Below, piece after piece: positions 4,043 to 27,208 of a stretch of 40,465 nt of DNA; positions within the stretch are counted from its first letter, which is position 1, and each line of letters begins with the position of its first letter. The position numbers and the translations under genes are program-made. A model generated the notes under the pieces. That model was not told the origin of the DNA. It made no database searches and worked only from the letters and a program-made list of their open reading frames with translations. Source of the DNA: Acidimicrobiia bacterium (GTDB taxonomy: Bacteria > Actinomycetota > Acidimicrobiia > Spongiisociales > SHLN01); NCBI GenBank assembly GCA_013002865.1, contig JABDLU010000101.1:1-40465 (forward strand), read 5' to 3'.

Positions 4043-4060
4043 GGCATCCAGGCATCGGGC

Positions 4061-4108
4061 ATCAGCAATCAGCAATCAGCAATCAGCAATCAGCAATCAG
4101 CAATCAGC
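4061..4108. repeat. Heptamer tandem array, unit ATCAGCA (6.9 copies)
   Basis: Six perfect copies of ATCAGCA plus six bases of a seventh lie in the gap after the DUF445 gene. The same unit, in the same orientation, recurs at 17471-17505. Confidence 0.97.
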
Positions 4109-4189
4109 TAAAGCAACGCCGACCCTGGGCTGCGAAGCAGCTCCAAAGGAATCCGCAGCGTTCCCAACGTCCGGTGTCTTGCTCCTGGG

Positions 4190-4217
4190 CCACCGACCAC
4201 CGACCATTGACCACTGA
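4190..4217. repeat. Heptamer tandem array, unit CCAYYGA (4 copies)
   Basis: Four in-register units: CCACCGA, CCACCGA, CCATTGA and CCACTGA. The array lies about 80 bp after the ATCAGCA array, in the same intergenic gap (4043-4270). The sequence between the two arrays shows no gene. Confidence 0.9.
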
Positions 4218-4258
4218 CAGGAACCCGCAGCGCTCCCCCACGTTTCGCTCCCGGGAGA

Positions 4259-14049: not shown

Positions 14050-15335
14050 CGAAACGCACAATCGACGTCAACTATCTCGCCCGGGTCGAAGGCGAAGGCT
14101 CACTGTCGGTCACACTCGACGGCGACCGGATCACCGAGCTGGAGTTCGGCATCTTCGAACCACCGCGCTTTTTCGAGGCGTTCTTGCAGGGCCGCCACTT
14201 CACCGAGGTCCCGGACATCACGGCTCGCATTTGCGGCATCTGCCCCATCGGCTACCAGACCTCGTCCGTCAACGCCATGGAGGACGCGTGCAACACTGCG
14301 GTGACCCCCGAAATCGACGCGCTCCGGCGCCTGATCTACTGCGGAGAATGGATCGAGAGCCACGCCCTGCACGTGTTCCTGCTGCACGCCCCGGACTTCC
14401 TCGGCTACGAGTCGGCGATCCACATGGCCAAGGACTTCCCCGACGAGGTCGAAATGGGGCTCCGGATCAAGAAGATCGGCAACTCGATCGTCGAGGTCGT
14501 TGGCGGCCGGGAGATTCACCCGATCAACACCCGGGTCGGCGGCTTCTACCGGGCGCCGACGACCCGCCAGCTAGAGGCGCTCATCCCCGAGCTCGAGTGG
14601 GGACTCGACGCCGCACTCCAAACCGCCGGCCTCGTCTCCGGGTTCACGTTTCCGGAGCTGGACCGGGACCATCTGTTCGTAGCAATGCGGCACCCCGATG
14701 AGTACGCCATCGCCCGCGGCCGGGTCGTGTCCAGCCGAGGCCTCGACATCACCGCCCACGAATACGAGGACCACTTCACCGAACAGCACGTCGCTCGATC
14801 AAACGCCCTTCACTCGCTTACGGCCGACGGCCAGGCCTATCACGTCGGGCCTATGGCCCGGTTCAACCTGAACTTCGAACAGCTGACCCCCCACGCCGCC
14901 GACGCCGCCACCCGCGCTGGGCTGGCCCCGCCCGTCACCAACCCGTTCCGCAGCATCGCCGTCCGGGCAATCGAGATCATCCTGGCGTTCGAAGAGGCGT
15001 TGCGGATCGTCCGTCACTACCGGCCGCCCGATCCGGCTGCGATCGAGGTCACCCCCCGGGCCGGAACCGGGTACGGGGTGAGTGAGGCACCGCGCGGGTT
15101 GCTCTACCACCGCTACCGGATCGACGCCGACGGCCTGATCGAGCAAGCCCGGATCGTTCCCCCCACGTCGCAGAATCAGCCGACTATCGAGGCCGACCTG
15201 CATGATCTCATCTCCGCCAACCTCTCGATGGCCGATGACGACCTGACCTGGCAGTGCGAGCAGGCCATCCGGAACTACGACCCATGCATCTCCTGTGCCA
15301 CACACTTCCTCGACCTCCGGATCAACCGTGGCTGA
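14046..15335 (+). CDS. hydA: Group 3b [NiFe]-hydrogenase large (alpha) subunit
   Basis: This 429-residue catalytic subunit overlaps the small-subunit gene by 4 nt. The four Ni-Fe-binding cysteines are present. The L1 motif is [11 protein letters not shown] (about residues 60-70), and the L2 motif is DPCISCATH (residues 412-420). Nine residues, FLDLRINRG, follow H420. They form the short tail that a maturation protease removes after nickel insertion. The protease gene starts inside this gene's last codons. The enzyme should interconvert H2 and protons with NAD(P)H. Group 3b assignment rests on the operon layout and motif wording. Confidence 0.95.
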
Positions 15336-15783
15336 GGGGGCGGCCGTCATTTGCGTCGGGAACCGGGCCCGGTCCGACGATGCGGTCGGCCCGCTGATCG
15401 CGGAGGAGCTGAGCCAGCGTCATCTCGACGTTCCCGTCCACGTTTCGGAGGGTGAGCCGGGCGAACTGCTCGAGCTGTGGTCACAGCTCAGCCGTGCCAT
15501 CCTGGTTGATGCGGTGGTGACGGGCCGCAGCGCCCCCGGCACGCTTCACGTCTTTTCAGTCACCGCCGAGCCCCTCCCGGTGCGGTCGCACGCCTCCAGC
15601 CACGGTATCGGCATACCGGAGACCATCGAGCTGGCTCGTGCCCTCCATCGCCTGCCGGACGACATCCGGTTGATCGGGATCGAAGCCGGCTGCCTGGAAC
15701 CGGGCACCGCGCTCACACCCGGCGTTGCGGCGGCCATCCCCGAGGCGGTGGCCCGCATAGTCGAGGAGATCAATGGTGCATGA
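15328..15783 (+). CDS. [NiFe]-hydrogenase maturation protease (HycI/HyaD-like)
   Basis: I chose GTG 15328 (151 residues, [21 protein letters not shown]). An ATG at 15295 would add 11 unrelated residues. The GNRARSDDAVG stretch is the HycI/HyaD family signature, with the first metal-binding acid normally a D/E of this loop. ILVDAVVTG supplies the second acid, and a histidine in SSHGIGI the third. It removes the alpha-subunit tail after nickel loading. The start overlaps the alpha stop by 8 nt, and the end overlaps hypA, so production is coupled to its target. Confidence 0.88.
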   Translation: MAEGAAVICVGNRARSDDAVGPLIAEELSQRHLDVPVHVSEGEPGELLELWSQLSRAILVDAVVTGRSAPGTLHVFSVTAEPLPVRSHASSHGIGIPETIELARALHRLPDDIRLIGIEAGCLEPGTALTPGVAAAIPEAVARIVEEINGA

Positions 15784-16036
15784 GCTGAGCCTGGTGGCAT
15801 CCCTATGCGCACGGGCCGAAGCCGCTGCCCGCGCCGATGGAGCCCGCCGGGTGACCGCCCTGACGGTGCGCCTCGGGGCCCTGTCTCACCTCTCCCCCGA
15901 GCACCTGCGGAACCATCTGGCCCGGGCCGCCACCGGATCGATGCTGGAGGGCGCCCGGCTCGTGGTGTCGGTCGGCACCGACCCCGCCGATCCCGCCGCC
16001 CAGGAGATCGAACTCGTGAGCCTCGAGGTCGAATAG
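15776..16036 (+). CDS. hypA: HypA-like nickel chaperone lacking the zinc domain
   Basis: I chose the GTG at 15776, giving 86 residues starting MHELSL. The MHE amino end binds nickel in HypA and has to be exact; the ATG one codon earlier would put a valine in it. The body matches HypA (ARRVTALTVRLGALSHLSPEHL, EGARLVV) and the C-terminal strand IELVSLEVE matches the family end. The 25-30 residue loop with two CxxC zinc motifs is missing. The protein contains one cysteine (C13 or so) and no CxxC. It still lies where hypA is expected, between the protease and hypC. Confidence 0.8.
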   Translation: MHELSLVASLCARAEAAARADGARRVTALTVRLGALSHLSPEHLRNHLARAATGSMLEGARLVVSVGTDPADPAAQEIELVSLEVE

Positions 16037-16038
16037 CC

Positions 16039-16269
16039 ATGTGCCTGGCGATCCCGGCTCGCATTGTGGCCATTTCCGAGGGCGCCGGCCTTGACCGCCA
16101 GGGTCGCATCGTGGTCGAAGGCACCGAGCGAGACGTCAACCTGGCCCTCGTGCCCGAGGCTGCCGTCGGTGACTACGTCATCACCCACGCCGGCTTCGCC
16201 CTCCGCCGCACCGAGCCGTTAGGAGCCGAAGCCACAACGAACGATTACCCGCCGGCAACCGGCGGGTAA
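16039..16269 (+). CDS. hypC: Hydrogenase assembly chaperone HypC
   Basis: This 76-residue protein begins with the invariant MCLAIPARIV; C2 binds iron in the HypC-HypD complex during Fe(CN)2CO assembly. The family pattern continues with DVNLALVPEAAVGDYVITHAGFAL. It is 2 bp from the hypA stop and is the last gene of the operon. HypD, HypE, HypF and HypB are needed for the cofactor but are not in the window. The last codons form part of a terminator hairpin. Confidence 0.95.
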   Translation: MCLAIPARIVAISEGAGLDRQGRIVVEGTERDVNLALVPEAAVGDYVITHAGFALRRTEPLGAEATTNDYPPATGG

Positions 16270-16288: not shown

Positions 16289-17332
16289 TCAGACGGTGAT
16301 GTCTTCTTTCACGATCGTCCGATCGACGGGTTCCTGCATCCGCCCGGACGGACGGGCACTCCGGTCTGTCCACCACACGGCACCCGCTGCCAGCACCGCG
16401 ATGATGCCGGCGAAGAACAGGGTGAAGATAATGGGTGAGAAGGCCACCGGCTTGATCGTGTCGTAATTGTCGAGGTTGTTCTCGAATGTCGACACCAGGC
16501 CGTCGAACCGGCTCATGGCCTCCGGCAAGGTACCGAGCGCCTGAGCGGTGGCCGGGAAGTTCTCGCCGAGGAACCCATTGAGCTCCTCACCGCTGAGCCC
16601 GAGTTGCTGGGCCAGAGCCGGCAGCATTTCGGTCTGCATCTGAGTCCCCATCGCCCCAACCGTCTCCAGGGCTCCATTCGCCTGGGCGACCAGCTCGGCC
16701 GTGTAGATCGGCTCCAGGTTCTCGTTGAGATCATCGGCATCGGCTGCTTTCGGGATGAGCGTGAGAATCAGCGTGACTACCACGATCAGAACGCCCAGTC
16801 CGCCGGTCAGGAAGAGCCCGGTCCGGCCGGGGCGGAACAGCATGACACCGGCACCGACCAGGGCAAGCCCGGCAAAGAACAGGCCCCACGGAACCGTGGT
16901 GGCCGGCAGGTCCTTGGTCGGGATCTGATCCGCCGAATCGAACAAGGGACGCTGCTGGTCCAGTGTGTCGACGAGGCCGTTGAACGTGGGCACGATCTCA
17001 GGCAGCGCCTGCACACCGGTCGCAACGGCCGGGAAGTTCGTGGCGGTGAAGCTCATGAACTCTTCGCCGCTCATCCCGAGCTGCTGCGACAGGGCAGGGA
17101 CGATGGCCGTCTCGAACTCGGGGCCGACTGCACCGAGCATGGCGAGGTCGCTCTGAGCCGTGGCGATCGACTCCTCGGCCAGCATCGGCCGGAAATCATC
17201 GATCATCTCCTCGAAGTCGGGACCGACCTGAAAGAGATTGTTAGCGAAGGTACTTATGAGAAGGACTACCCCCACCACCGCCACGATCGCTCCCGCGACG
17301 CGGCGAACTGGTGAGGAAGAATTGGCACGCAT
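16289..17332 (-). CDS. Membrane protein with internal duplication, unknown function
   Basis: The 347-residue protein starts at ATG 17332, with GGGAGG upstream. It has four hydrophobic segments (about residues 13-31, 149-166, 172-193 and 298-320). Two homologous extracytoplasmic-type domains lie between them. The first (about residues 67-140) has VPALSQQLGMSGEEFMSF, NFPAVATGVQALPE and FNGLVDTL. The second (about 218-290) has LPALAQQLGLSGEELNGF, NFPATAQALGTLPE and FDGLVSTF. Each half is therefore TM-domain-TM. No family was recognised. It may be an envelope or channel-like protein; that is a guess. Confidence 0.8.
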   Translation of the reverse strand: MRANSSSPVRRVAGAIVAVVGVVLLISTFANNLFQVGPDFEEMIDDFRPMLAEESIATAQSDLAMLGAVGPEFETAIVPALSQQLGMSGEEFMSFTATNFPAVATGVQALPEIVPTFNGLVDTLDQQRPLFDSADQIPTKDLPATTVPWGLFFAGLALVGAGVMLFRPGRTGLFLTGGLGVLIVVVTLILTLIPKAADADDLNENLEPIYTAELVAQANGALETVGAMGTQMQTEMLPALAQQLGLSGEELNGFLGENFPATAQALGTLPEAMSRFDGLVSTFENNLDNYDTIKPVAFSPIIFTLFFAGIIAVLAAGAVWWTDRSARPSGRMQEPVDRTIVKEDITV

Positions 17333-17350
17333 GTTTACGCCTCCCGTTCA

Positions 17351-17417
17351 TGCACAACAGTGCACGGTATGTGCAGCTTTGCGCATATGTTGCCTCCTGC
17401 ACACCCTGCACAACAGG
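17351..17417 (-). promoter_or_regulatory. Cluster of GTGCA/TGCAC motifs upstream of 17332 gene
   Basis: The 67 bp upstream of the duplicated membrane protein contain at least five GTGCA/TGCAC words. TGCACAACAG occurs twice, at 17351-17360 and 17408-17417. Spacing and repetition resemble a multi-site operator. No regulator is identified and no promoter could be fixed. Confidence 0.3.
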
Positions 17418-17435
17418 GCCATAAGGCCTTCGCGT

Positions 17436-17505
17436 CCGGTCGCCGGTCGCCGGTCGCCAGTCGCCGGTCAGCAATCAGCAATCAGCAATCAGCAATCAGC
17501 AATCA
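17436..17505. repeat. Compound heptamer array: CCGGTCG units passing into GCAATCA units
   Basis: Ten in-register heptamers: CCGGTCG three times, CCAGTCG, CCGGTCA, then GCAATCA five times. The unit sequence changes across the array but the 7-bp phase does not. GCAATCA is the same unit, in another phase, as the array at 4061. Confidence 0.95.
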
Positions 17506-17506
17506 G

Positions 17507-17583
17507 CGACCCAAACGGGAGCACGGGAACGCGCTTTCACCCCCCTCCTTGCCTCCCCCACTCGCTGCGCTCGCGGGGGAGGT
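17507..17583. repeat. Two-block intergenic repeat, copy 1
   Basis: Block one (17507-17534) begins CGACCCAAACGGGAGCACGG. Block two (17542-17583) carries an inverted repeat, CCTCCCCC against GGGGGAGG, around CACTCGCTGCGCTCGC. Both blocks recur at 17651-17747 with one mismatch each. The 17333-17879 gap holds only repeats, no supported gene. Confidence 0.85.
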
Positions 17584-17650
17584 ATCAGAAACGGCGTGGT
17601 CTCAAACGGTGCCGACAACGAGCATCGGTGGAGGCGAGGCGGGCGGAGGG

Positions 17651-17747
17651 AACGACCCAAACGGGAGCTCGGGAACGCGCCCAGCAACCCGTAGGGTTGC
17701 TCACTCCCCTCCTTGCCTCCCCCACTCGTTGCGCTCGCGGGGGAGGT
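17651..17747. repeat. Two-block intergenic repeat, copy 2 with inserted hairpin
   Basis: This is the second copy of the repeat at 17507-17583 (blocks at 17651-17678 and 17706-17747). An extra stem, AGCAACCC-GTA-GGGTTGCT (17681-17699), lies between the blocks. Distance between copies of block one is 144 bp. Confidence 0.85.
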
Positions 17748-17773
17748 GATGATCGAGCAACGTTCTCTTGCTG

Positions 17774-17822
17774 GGGACGGGCGACGGGGGACGGGGGACT
17801 CAGGACCAACGACCAACGACTA
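17774..17822. repeat. Degenerate heptamer array with fixed GAC core (7 copies)
   Basis: Seven in-register units with GAC at the same place: GGGACGG, GCGACGG, GGGACGG, GGGACTC, AGGACCA, ACGACCA and ACGACTA. Confidence 0.85.
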
Positions 17823-17833
17823 CGAATGCAAAA

Positions 17834-17857
17834 GAACCGGAGCTCTCGCTCCGGTTC
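17834..17857 (-). terminator. Rho-independent terminator of pspA
   Basis: Perfect 10-bp arms (GAACCGGAGC / GCTCCGGTTC) enclose a 4-nt loop. On the minus strand the stem is followed by TTTTGCATT. It lies 22 bp past the PspA stop and is the clearest intrinsic terminator here. Confidence 0.88.
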
Positions 17858-17879
17858 GTTCGCAGAGTGCTTCGACCAG

Positions 17880-18602
17880 CTAGCCGGCCAACCCCAGCTC
17901 GGCCTTGAGCTCTTCGAGCTTCTCGTCGGCTTTGGCGAGCGAGACCGCTTCCCGCAGCTCCATCTCGGAGCCTTCCGGCGTGGCCTCGCGAAGCTCGGCG
18001 TGCGCCATCGCTTCTGACTTGCGCTTCTCGATCTTCTCTTCGACGCGAGCGAGACTGGGAACCTCGTCGTCCATTGTCTCGGTCATGGAGGTGACGGCTT
18101 TGTTGACCGACTCCTGCATCTTGGCCTGCTGGAGGGCACCGAGCAGCTCGAGGCGCTTCGCGGCCAGTTCCTGAAGCCGCATGGCGTTCTGGCTGACGGC
18201 CGACTTGGCCTTCTCGGCCTGCTCCATGGCTGTCTCGTACTGCTTCTTCAGACTGTCGAGGTTGGACTCGGAGGCCTGCAGGCGCATGGCCAGCGACTGA
18301 GCGGACCGGGTCCACTTTTCAGCTTCCTCCACGTTGCCGGCAACACGCGCTTCCTCAGCTTTGAGGAGCGCCTTCTTGGCGAGCTCCCGAGCCGAGCCAA
18401 CATTGTCGGCTGCGGTCTCGATCTTCGACTCGAGCTGAACCCGATGGGCGACCACCTTGGCCGCCTGGTTGCGCAGCTCCTGATCTCGCTTTTTGGCCTC
18501 GGAGATCGCTTGCTCGATCTCGATCTCGGGGTCCATCGCCCGCTCGGCCGTTGTCTTGAACAACTGCGTGATATAGCCCCAGAGGCGTCTCAGAAAACCC
18601 AT
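17880..18602 (-). CDS. pspA: PspA/IM30 family envelope-stress protein
   Basis: The 240-residue protein starts at ATG 18602 (MGFLRRLWGYITQLFKTTAERAMDPE), with GGATGGAG upstream. An open frame continuing to 19031 is a shadow. The amphipathic N-terminal helix is followed by a long coiled coil (about residues 28-180), with Q/E/K-rich heptads such as QEAKKRDQ-like and LESKIETAADN segments. A charged tail ends in KADEKLEELKAELGLAG. PspA proteins form ESCRT-III-like assemblies that protect the membrane. The gene follows the TPM-like membrane protein by 83 bp on the same strand and ends at an intrinsic terminator. Confidence 0.92.
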   Translation of the reverse strand: MGFLRRLWGYITQLFKTTAERAMDPEIEIEQAISEAKKRDQELRNQAAKVVAHRVQLESKIETAADNVGSARELAKKALLKAEEARVAGNVEEAEKWTRSAQSLAMRLQASESNLDSLKKQYETAMEQAEKAKSAVSQNAMRLQELAAKRLELLGALQQAKMQESVNKAVTSMTETMDDEVPSLARVEEKIEKRKSEAMAHAELREATPEGSEMELREAVSLAKADEKLEELKAELGLAG

Positions 18603-21913: not shown

Positions 21914-21943
21914 TGCAGCGCAGCGCCCGTGCGCTGCGCTGCA
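21914..21943. other. Perfect 13-bp inverted repeat upstream of proC
   Basis: Arms TGCAGCGCAGCGC (21914-21926) and its complement (21931-21943) enclose a CCGT loop, 11 bp upstream of the proC ATG. It overlaps the expected core promoter, so it could be an operator or a 5' stem if transcription starts farther out. Confidence 0.7.
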
Positions 21944-22030
21944 GTCAACCGTCGACGGTCAACTGTCAACTGCCAGAAGCCCGCTAGGGCGGCGGCTTGG
22001 CCGTTGACGGTTGACGGTTGACCGTCGACC
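21944..22030. repeat. Two heptamer arrays in inverted orientation
   Basis: Array one (21944-21971): GTCAACC, GTCGACG, GTCAACT, GTCAACT. Array two (22003-22030): GTTGACG, GTTGACG, GTTGACC, GTCGACC. Read in reverse, array two matches array one over 21 bp with two mismatches. The loop between them has its own weak dyad (GCCAGAAGCCCGC against GCGGCGGCTTGGC). Confidence 0.9.
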
Positions 22031-22055
22031 GGCTTCGTAGCTGCTCCCTCCTCCG

Positions 22056-26938: not shown

Positions 26939-26960
26939 CACCGGCCCGCGGGGGCCGGTG
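26939..26960 (+). terminator. GC-rich hairpin after 26021 gene
   Basis: Perfect 9-bp arms (CACCGGCCC / GGGCCGGTG) enclose a GCGG loop just past the TAG. No T-run follows; the heptamer array starts at once. Confidence 0.65.
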
Positions 26961-26988
26961 GTCAGTGGTCAGTGGTCAGTGGTCATAC
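26961..26988. repeat. Heptamer tandem array, unit GTCAGTG (4 copies)
   Basis: Units GTCAGTG three times, then GTCATAC. The array lies between the hairpin and the SD of the small gene at 26996, so its last unit overlaps the likely promoter. Confidence 0.9.
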
Positions 26989-26995
26989 TGGGAGC

Positions 26996-27196
26996 ATGGA
27001 TCGAGCACGACTGATCGAGGAGAAGCATCGGGTCCAGGGGGAGATCCGGGCGTTGCGGCCCCGGGTGGAGCGGGCCATGGGCGAGGCATCCAACGGTCGG
27101 CAGCGGCGCCGGGCCCAGCGCATGCAGCGAGAGCTGGAGCGTCTCATGAGCCGGGAGGGGGAGCTCCGCATGGCGATCGATCGGGCGCCACGCTGA
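26996..27196 (+). CDS. Small basic coiled-coil protein
   Basis: This 66-residue ORF starts at ATG 26996 with GGGAG close upstream. It is rich in R and E with a heptad-like pattern (LIEEKHRVQGEIRALRPRVERA, then RRAQRMQRELERLMSREGEL). That suggests a helical dimer. CATACT 6 nt before the start could be a -10 box. No family was recognised. A gap of 12 bp separates it from fumarylacetoacetase. Confidence 0.6.
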   Translation: MDRARLIEEKHRVQGEIRALRPRVERAMGEASNGRQRRRAQRMQRELERLMSREGELRMAIDRAPR

Positions 27197-27202
27197 TACG
27201 CT
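27197..27202 (+). promoter_or_regulatory. Putative leaderless -10 box (TACGCT)
   Basis: TACGCT ends 6 nt before the GTG at 27209; no SD is present. Confidence 0.45.
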
Positions 27203-27208
27203 CGGACC

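Follow-up and report, generated by a model that had tools for sequence, protein, structure and literature searches.

A 7-bp tandem array that changes its unit in phase, and related intergenic heptamer arrays in an Acidimicrobiia draft genome

The window analysed here, the whole stretch of 40,465 nt, is contig 55 of a draft genome (G000; 2.9 Mb, 224 contigs, about 90% complete). At positions 17436-17505 it contains ten contiguous heptamers, CCGGTCG x3, CCAGTCG, CCGGTCA and GCAATCA x5, in one 7-bp register without any shift, exactly as a preliminary description of this locus had given the units, coordinates and phase. We consider that this array probably belongs to a family of heptameric SSRs spread between genes throughout the genome, in which 7-nt slippage together with point mutation makes mixed units. 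Established by observation are the array itself, the exclusivity of the 7-bp period, the graded and mixed arrays, the turnover of units between species, including at orthologous sites, and the undetected MutS.

The focal array and the other arrays of the window

The focal array shares its intergenic region with an opposing array, as follows.

16289-17332, minus strand: gene for a 347-aa protein without a Pfam match, flanking the arrays
17333-17879, no strand assigned: intergenic region with the focal array and the opposing array, between the 347-aa protein gene and the PspA/IM30 gene
17436-17470, plus strand: 5' block of the focal array, CCGGTCG x3, CCAGTCG, CCGGTCA
17471-17505, plus strand: 3' block of the focal array, GCAATCA x5, in the register of the 5' block
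17772-17820, minus strand: opposing heptamer array, GTCGTTG x2, GTCCTGA, GTCCCCC x2, GTCGCCC, GTCCCCA
Stop at 17880, minus strand: PspA/IM30 gene, flanking the arrays

One RTC core recurs every 7 bp from 17439 to 17508, and CCGGTCA meets GCAATCA exactly at the TCA core. Tandem Repeats Finder splits the focal array into two overlapping 7-bp rows (17436-17469 and 17468-17507). The opposing array is likewise a mixed series of units in one phase. The focal array has neither the CCAGA cap nor the 5' hairpin described below for other arrays, its predicted fold was no better than that of many shuffles (z = -1.3), so that its secondary structure is unremarkable, and an Rfam search gave no curated match. 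As to G-quadruplex potential, neither CCGGTCG nor GCAATCA contains three consecutive G on either strand. The flanking gene's closest named relatives carry Acidimicrobiia MAG labels.

Between the opposing arrays lie two copies (17552-17582 and 17716-17746) of a dispersed hairpin repeat, CCTCCCCCACTCGYTGCGCTCGCGGGGGAGG, related copies of which are found elsewhere in this genome and in the congeners G001 and G003. The genes for HycI (hydrogenase maturation protease) and HypC (15295-16269) are located just past the 347-aa protein gene; in G003 the latter is missing and PspA directly follows the hydrogenase maturation genes.

The window holds seven period-7 arrays, and those outside this intergenic region are listed here with one adjoining motif.

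4054-4109, plus strand: heptamer array, ATCGGGC, ATCAGCA x6, ATCAGCT
4191-4218, minus strand: opposing heptamer array, GTCAGTG, GTCAATG, GTCGGTG x2
21944-21971, plus strand: heptamer array, GTCRACN x4, with a perfect 13-bp hairpin adjoining its 5' side
21972-21978, plus strand: 3' cap motif GCCAGAA, immediately 3' of the array at 21944-21971
22002-22029, minus strand: opposing heptamer array paired with 21944-21971, GTCGACG, GTCAACC x2, GTCAACG
26961-26988, plus strand: heptamer array, GTCAGTG x3, GTCATAC; two congeners have a different heptamer at the orthologous site

At 21930-22040, the two GTCRACN arrays and their spacer are predicted to fold as RNA into one long hairpin (-63 kcal/mol, z = -4.9), and G002 and G003 lack an array at the orthologous site.

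Period and units in the genome and its relatives

In a 340-kb sample of G000, whose stretches were partly picked for containing GCAATCA, near-perfect tandem arrays numbered 58 for period 7 and none for periods 4-6 and 8-13 at equal stringency, as read from a MAG assembly in which copy numbers may be misstated. In 257 kb of contigs picked blind to repeats there were 14 period-7 arrays against 2 of other periods; the true density of arrays is therefore lower, but the exclusivity of period 7 still holds. GCAATCA x3 occurs 108 times in the whole genome (overlapping counts) and the reversed pattern does not occur. A separate reversed-pattern control does not serve as a clean null, since some real units have RCTG heptamers on their complement strand. 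With a looser threshold, 81 arrays of 27 unit types were found in the 340 kb. A GTC or ATC core is present in 22 of these types and GTT in the other five (p about 6e-6 for the RTC content, 38% being the expectation for random heptamers). Whereas 80 RTC arrays were observed in the 340 kb, its order-2 Markov shuffles contained none, and the focal array is beyond chance. In the first G000 set, all 72 arrays were intergenic (0/72 in genes), and within this genome a few identical units reappear at dozens of unlinked loci.

Period-7 arrays of GTCAGAA, GTCATCG and GTCGTCG were also seen in stretches of G035 (L111-L119), and two IMG/VR viral contigs have ATCAGCA arrays of 5-6 units (L215:325-366 and L216:609-650).

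The comparison with relatives was made at the species level, with one genome per species, and revealed gain, loss and unit replacement of arrays. The nearest relative, G001 (flanking protein 75% identical), has no array at the focal site, where the upstream region is kept and a different sequence lies beyond. At the orthologous site 26939-27208, GTGGTCA x4 in this genome corresponds to CCCACCG/CCAGCCG in G003 and CCCACCG/CCCTCCG in G001, and G004 has no array. Heptamers have also changed at the orthologous sites L065:10984, L063:5416 (GTGGTCA here, TTGCCCG and GATGCCT arrays in G003), L061:11209 and L061:14667 (GTCRACN arrays common to this genome and G002, CCGGCTT in G001), and AGGCAGT x12 of G001 occupies the position of a 26-bp spacer in this genome. 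Arrays coincided across syntenic intergenic pairs more often than expected (5/15 vs 3/63, p = 0.006); the coincidence was weaker with spacers of at least 60 bp only (p = 0.07), so spacer length may account for part of the apparent site preference.

The preliminary description had suggested from the single locus that period and core, not sequence, are maintained. The period part extends to every species examined, congeners included, in all of which period 7 is nearly exclusive, and the independence from sequence proved wider than proposed, since the unit differs between loci, between congeners and even at orthologous sites. The core part was borne out within G000 (RTC/RTY) and failed in G001 and G003, whose units retain the 7-bp period but have no RTC core; these other units rule out a universal RTC core.

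Probable slippage, direction and possible origin of the arrays

Among 89 runs with a minimum of four units, 35 combined different unit classes, closely related classes being counted as well. Read from the core, the focal transition runs in phase from GTCGCCG-type to ATCAGCA-type units, and the same in-phase transition occurs again at two loci whose flanks are mutually unrelated and unlike the window: L066:1851 (GTCGCCG x4, GTCGGCA, ATCAGCA x3) and L058:2462 (GTCGCCG, GTCGGCA, ATCGGCT, GTCGGCT, ATCGGCA, ATCAGCA x4), the latter being nearly a mutational ladder. Copies would be gained and lost in exact 7-nt steps through slippage in DNA synthesis or realignment of the template, and a point-mutated unit, amplified in turn, would give a second unit type in the register of the first. 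Nascent-strand template switching at the common RTCR core, here TCA, may also join families in phase. From these patterns we infer slippage as the step that changes copy number, and likewise a contribution of template switching. The earlier proposal that a new unit invaded by slippage at an intermediate is compatible with graded arrays such as L058:2462, whereas its premise that simple slippage of one unit would not yield two in-phase unit types was not right, because slippage with point mutation does so.

The MutS_I domain was undetected in 59/59 genomes of order-level relatives (controls positive in 11/14), so slipped loops may escape repair, which would not by itself favour a step of 7. From plain slippage some arrays of period 5, 6 or 8 would be expected, but they are almost absent; such slippage also leaves unexplained the recurrent units at unlinked loci, the convergence and the CCAGA cap, and the out-of-phase half of the strong junctions (see below) likewise counts against it. 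Recurrence, convergence and cap would need something more, such as copying between arrays, insertion of heptamer-ended elements or directional addition to DNA ends.

Array direction was read on the RTC strand, and opposite-strand arrays at most 400 bp apart were taken as neighbours. Such neighbours were convergent in 28 of 30 pairs (21/23 in the first set and 7/7 in the validation sets), and of 126 arrays, 93 were directed away from the nearer gene and 33 towards it; the blind contigs (14 away, 4 toward) and G002 (10 away, 2 toward) showed this polarity too. It is found near gene starts and gene ends alike, and the direction of transcription is therefore not the explanation. In G035 the polarity relative to genes was opposite (3 away, 7 toward). 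CCAGA was located within 13 bp 3' of the array in 13/80 arrays of G000 and 6/15 of G002, against a background of about 1% (p about 1e-12 and 2e-9, respectively), and in 2/20 arrays of the blind contigs; no other flank 5-mer was more frequent than CCAGA in either G000 or G002. About 11 arrays of the GTCRACN or GTCARTG type begin right after a perfect or near-perfect hairpin of locus-specific sequence. The hairpin was rejected as a general 5' feature, since there was no overall energy difference and perfect hairpins are confined to a subset.

It is possible, but in our judgement unlikely, that the arrays mark the termini of insertions: small elements, either mobile or templated, that carry heptamers at convergent ends and an inner cap GCCAGA and that spread between loci. 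Both unit types of the focal array would in that case have arrived together. The convergence of neighbours (28:2), the polarity away from the nearer gene, the CCAGA enrichment in the 3' flank, the perfect hairpins adjoining 5' ends and the identical units at many unlinked loci are all in line with such elements. However, the sequences enclosed between paired arrays are mostly unalike, the units of convergent arms are often non-complementary, and the cap occurs in a minority of arrays. A search for MITE-like boundaries and a target duplication gave the one-sided CCAGA cap in this minority, an unconserved 5' side and no clean empty site. Other observations against insertion are that Y1_Tnp (PF01797) was found in 0/59 genomes (controls positive in 5/14; G000 about 90% complete), that RVT_1 was not found in G000 at that completeness, and that the focal array has neither cap nor hairpin. 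We accordingly rejected an origin from a Y1/REP (RAYT) transposase and one from a telomere-like or retron-like reverse transcriptase; RVT_1 was present in 6/59 relatives. Ku was found in 45/59 genomes, and Ku end joining was rejected as a requirement (17/20 array-rich genomes vs 28/39 others, p = 0.34); G011 and G022 are array-rich without a Ku match.

A roughly 200-bp intergenic stretch with heptamer ends at L061:14667-15252 appears to be tandemly repeated (GCCAGAACCCGTTTCACG... to ...CGCTCTTGGC), which suggests a larger-scale duplication of a cap-to-cap unit.

The strictly intergenic location and the core conserved within G000 could also be expected of a regulatory array, with tandem sites for a protein reading the RTCR core every 7 bp, and a role as regulator sites has been suggested for heptamers of Geobacter (PMC2700814) and Beggiatoaceae (PMC4679880). 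We regard this as distinctly improbable, because the focal site lacks an array in the nearest relative despite the conserved upstream gene region, units turn over between congeners, some of which lack the core, and arrays are located by gene starts and stops alike, also between converging genes. A host function for the arrays is neither demonstrated nor required.

Two independent arrays may in principle have abutted with a common register by chance, since CCGGTCG and GCAATCA are each found alone elsewhere in the genome and an equal phase is expected by chance in 1 of 7 cases. This case of two insertions joined by chance, which the preliminary description had raised against its own reading, is disfavoured and we consider it very unlikely: the same ordered in-phase transition occurs at three unrelated loci, with different flanks at L058:2462 and L066:1851 and with graded intermediates at one of them. 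Moreover, among the ten junctions of clearly different units in G000, five were in register, above the expected 1/7 (p = 0.008), three were shifted by 1 bp and two by 4 bp, which indicates that phase is favoured, not obligatory. The least probable reading, and a very remote one, is that a putative enzyme with a 7-nt step adds heptamers processively, telomere-like, to 3' ends at intergenic breaks and that the extended ends are then joined, although, if true, it would provide one mechanism for convergence, polarity away from genes, serial unit changes, locus-specific fold-back hairpins and the CCAGA end mark. We retain slippage with point mutation as the preferred explanation of the focal array.

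Comparison with known heptamer repeats

A preference for 7-bp tandem repeats in bacteria has been noted since 2007, without a tested cause. Heptanucleotides are cited as the most abundant class of long-unit SSRs in most genomes, with polymerase slippage involving a 7-nt contact as the proposed cause (Mrazek et al. 2007, as cited in PMC4679880). The survey dealt with statistically long repeats, whereas here in-phase unit replacement and turnover at orthologous sites are seen in uncultured Acidimicrobiia.

The intergenic heptamers of Xanthomonas and Nostoc, GGGAATC and GGGGA(C/T)T, are dispersed, and Xanthomonas has 70-75 convergent plus/minus heptamer pairs, with repeats nearer to the 5' neighbouring ORF in any orientation (Rehm et al. 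2015, PMC4692102). Our arrays resemble them in period 7, dispersed intergenic location, heterogeneous units, convergent pairs and position nearer to the 5' ORF. They differ in that Xanthomonas and Nostoc have one dominant, G-rich, quadruplex-capable unit, whereas here many units coexist, often within a single array, most of them without G-tracts, congeners differ in their units at one and the same site, and a CCAGA cap is seen.

TAACTGA direct repeats occur in marine Beggiatoaceae, cyanobacteria and Bacteroidetes (MacGregor 2015, PMC4679880). These are also intergenic heptamer direct repeats of patchy distribution, and TAACTGA is circularly ATCAGTT, close to ATCAGCA of this genome. In that system near-variants are rarely repeated and the repeats lie mostly just upstream of start codons, whereas here variants are abundant and both gene starts and gene ends are occupied. 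Cyanobacterial STRR heptamers include CCCCAGT, TTGGTCA and CAACAGT. As in our genome, several heptamer families are found per genome, and all three units have a GTC core in circular form, although they are from a different phylum. RTC is present in circular form in 8/8 of the published heptamers that we listed (chance about 5e-4), a list that is unsystematic and includes the three cyanobacterial STRR units, and this common RTC is a lead only.

The heptamer preference and convergent heptamer pairs are thus already published, and the varied, strongly turning-over units are the notable variant. This lineage is an unusually clean case, with a nearly exclusive period 7, unit replacement between congeners, also at some orthologous sites, and arrays that have a direction and in some cases a constant motif at the end. 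Should direction and cap be confirmed, more than plain slippage would be at work, and the step responsible for '7' would become open to testing.
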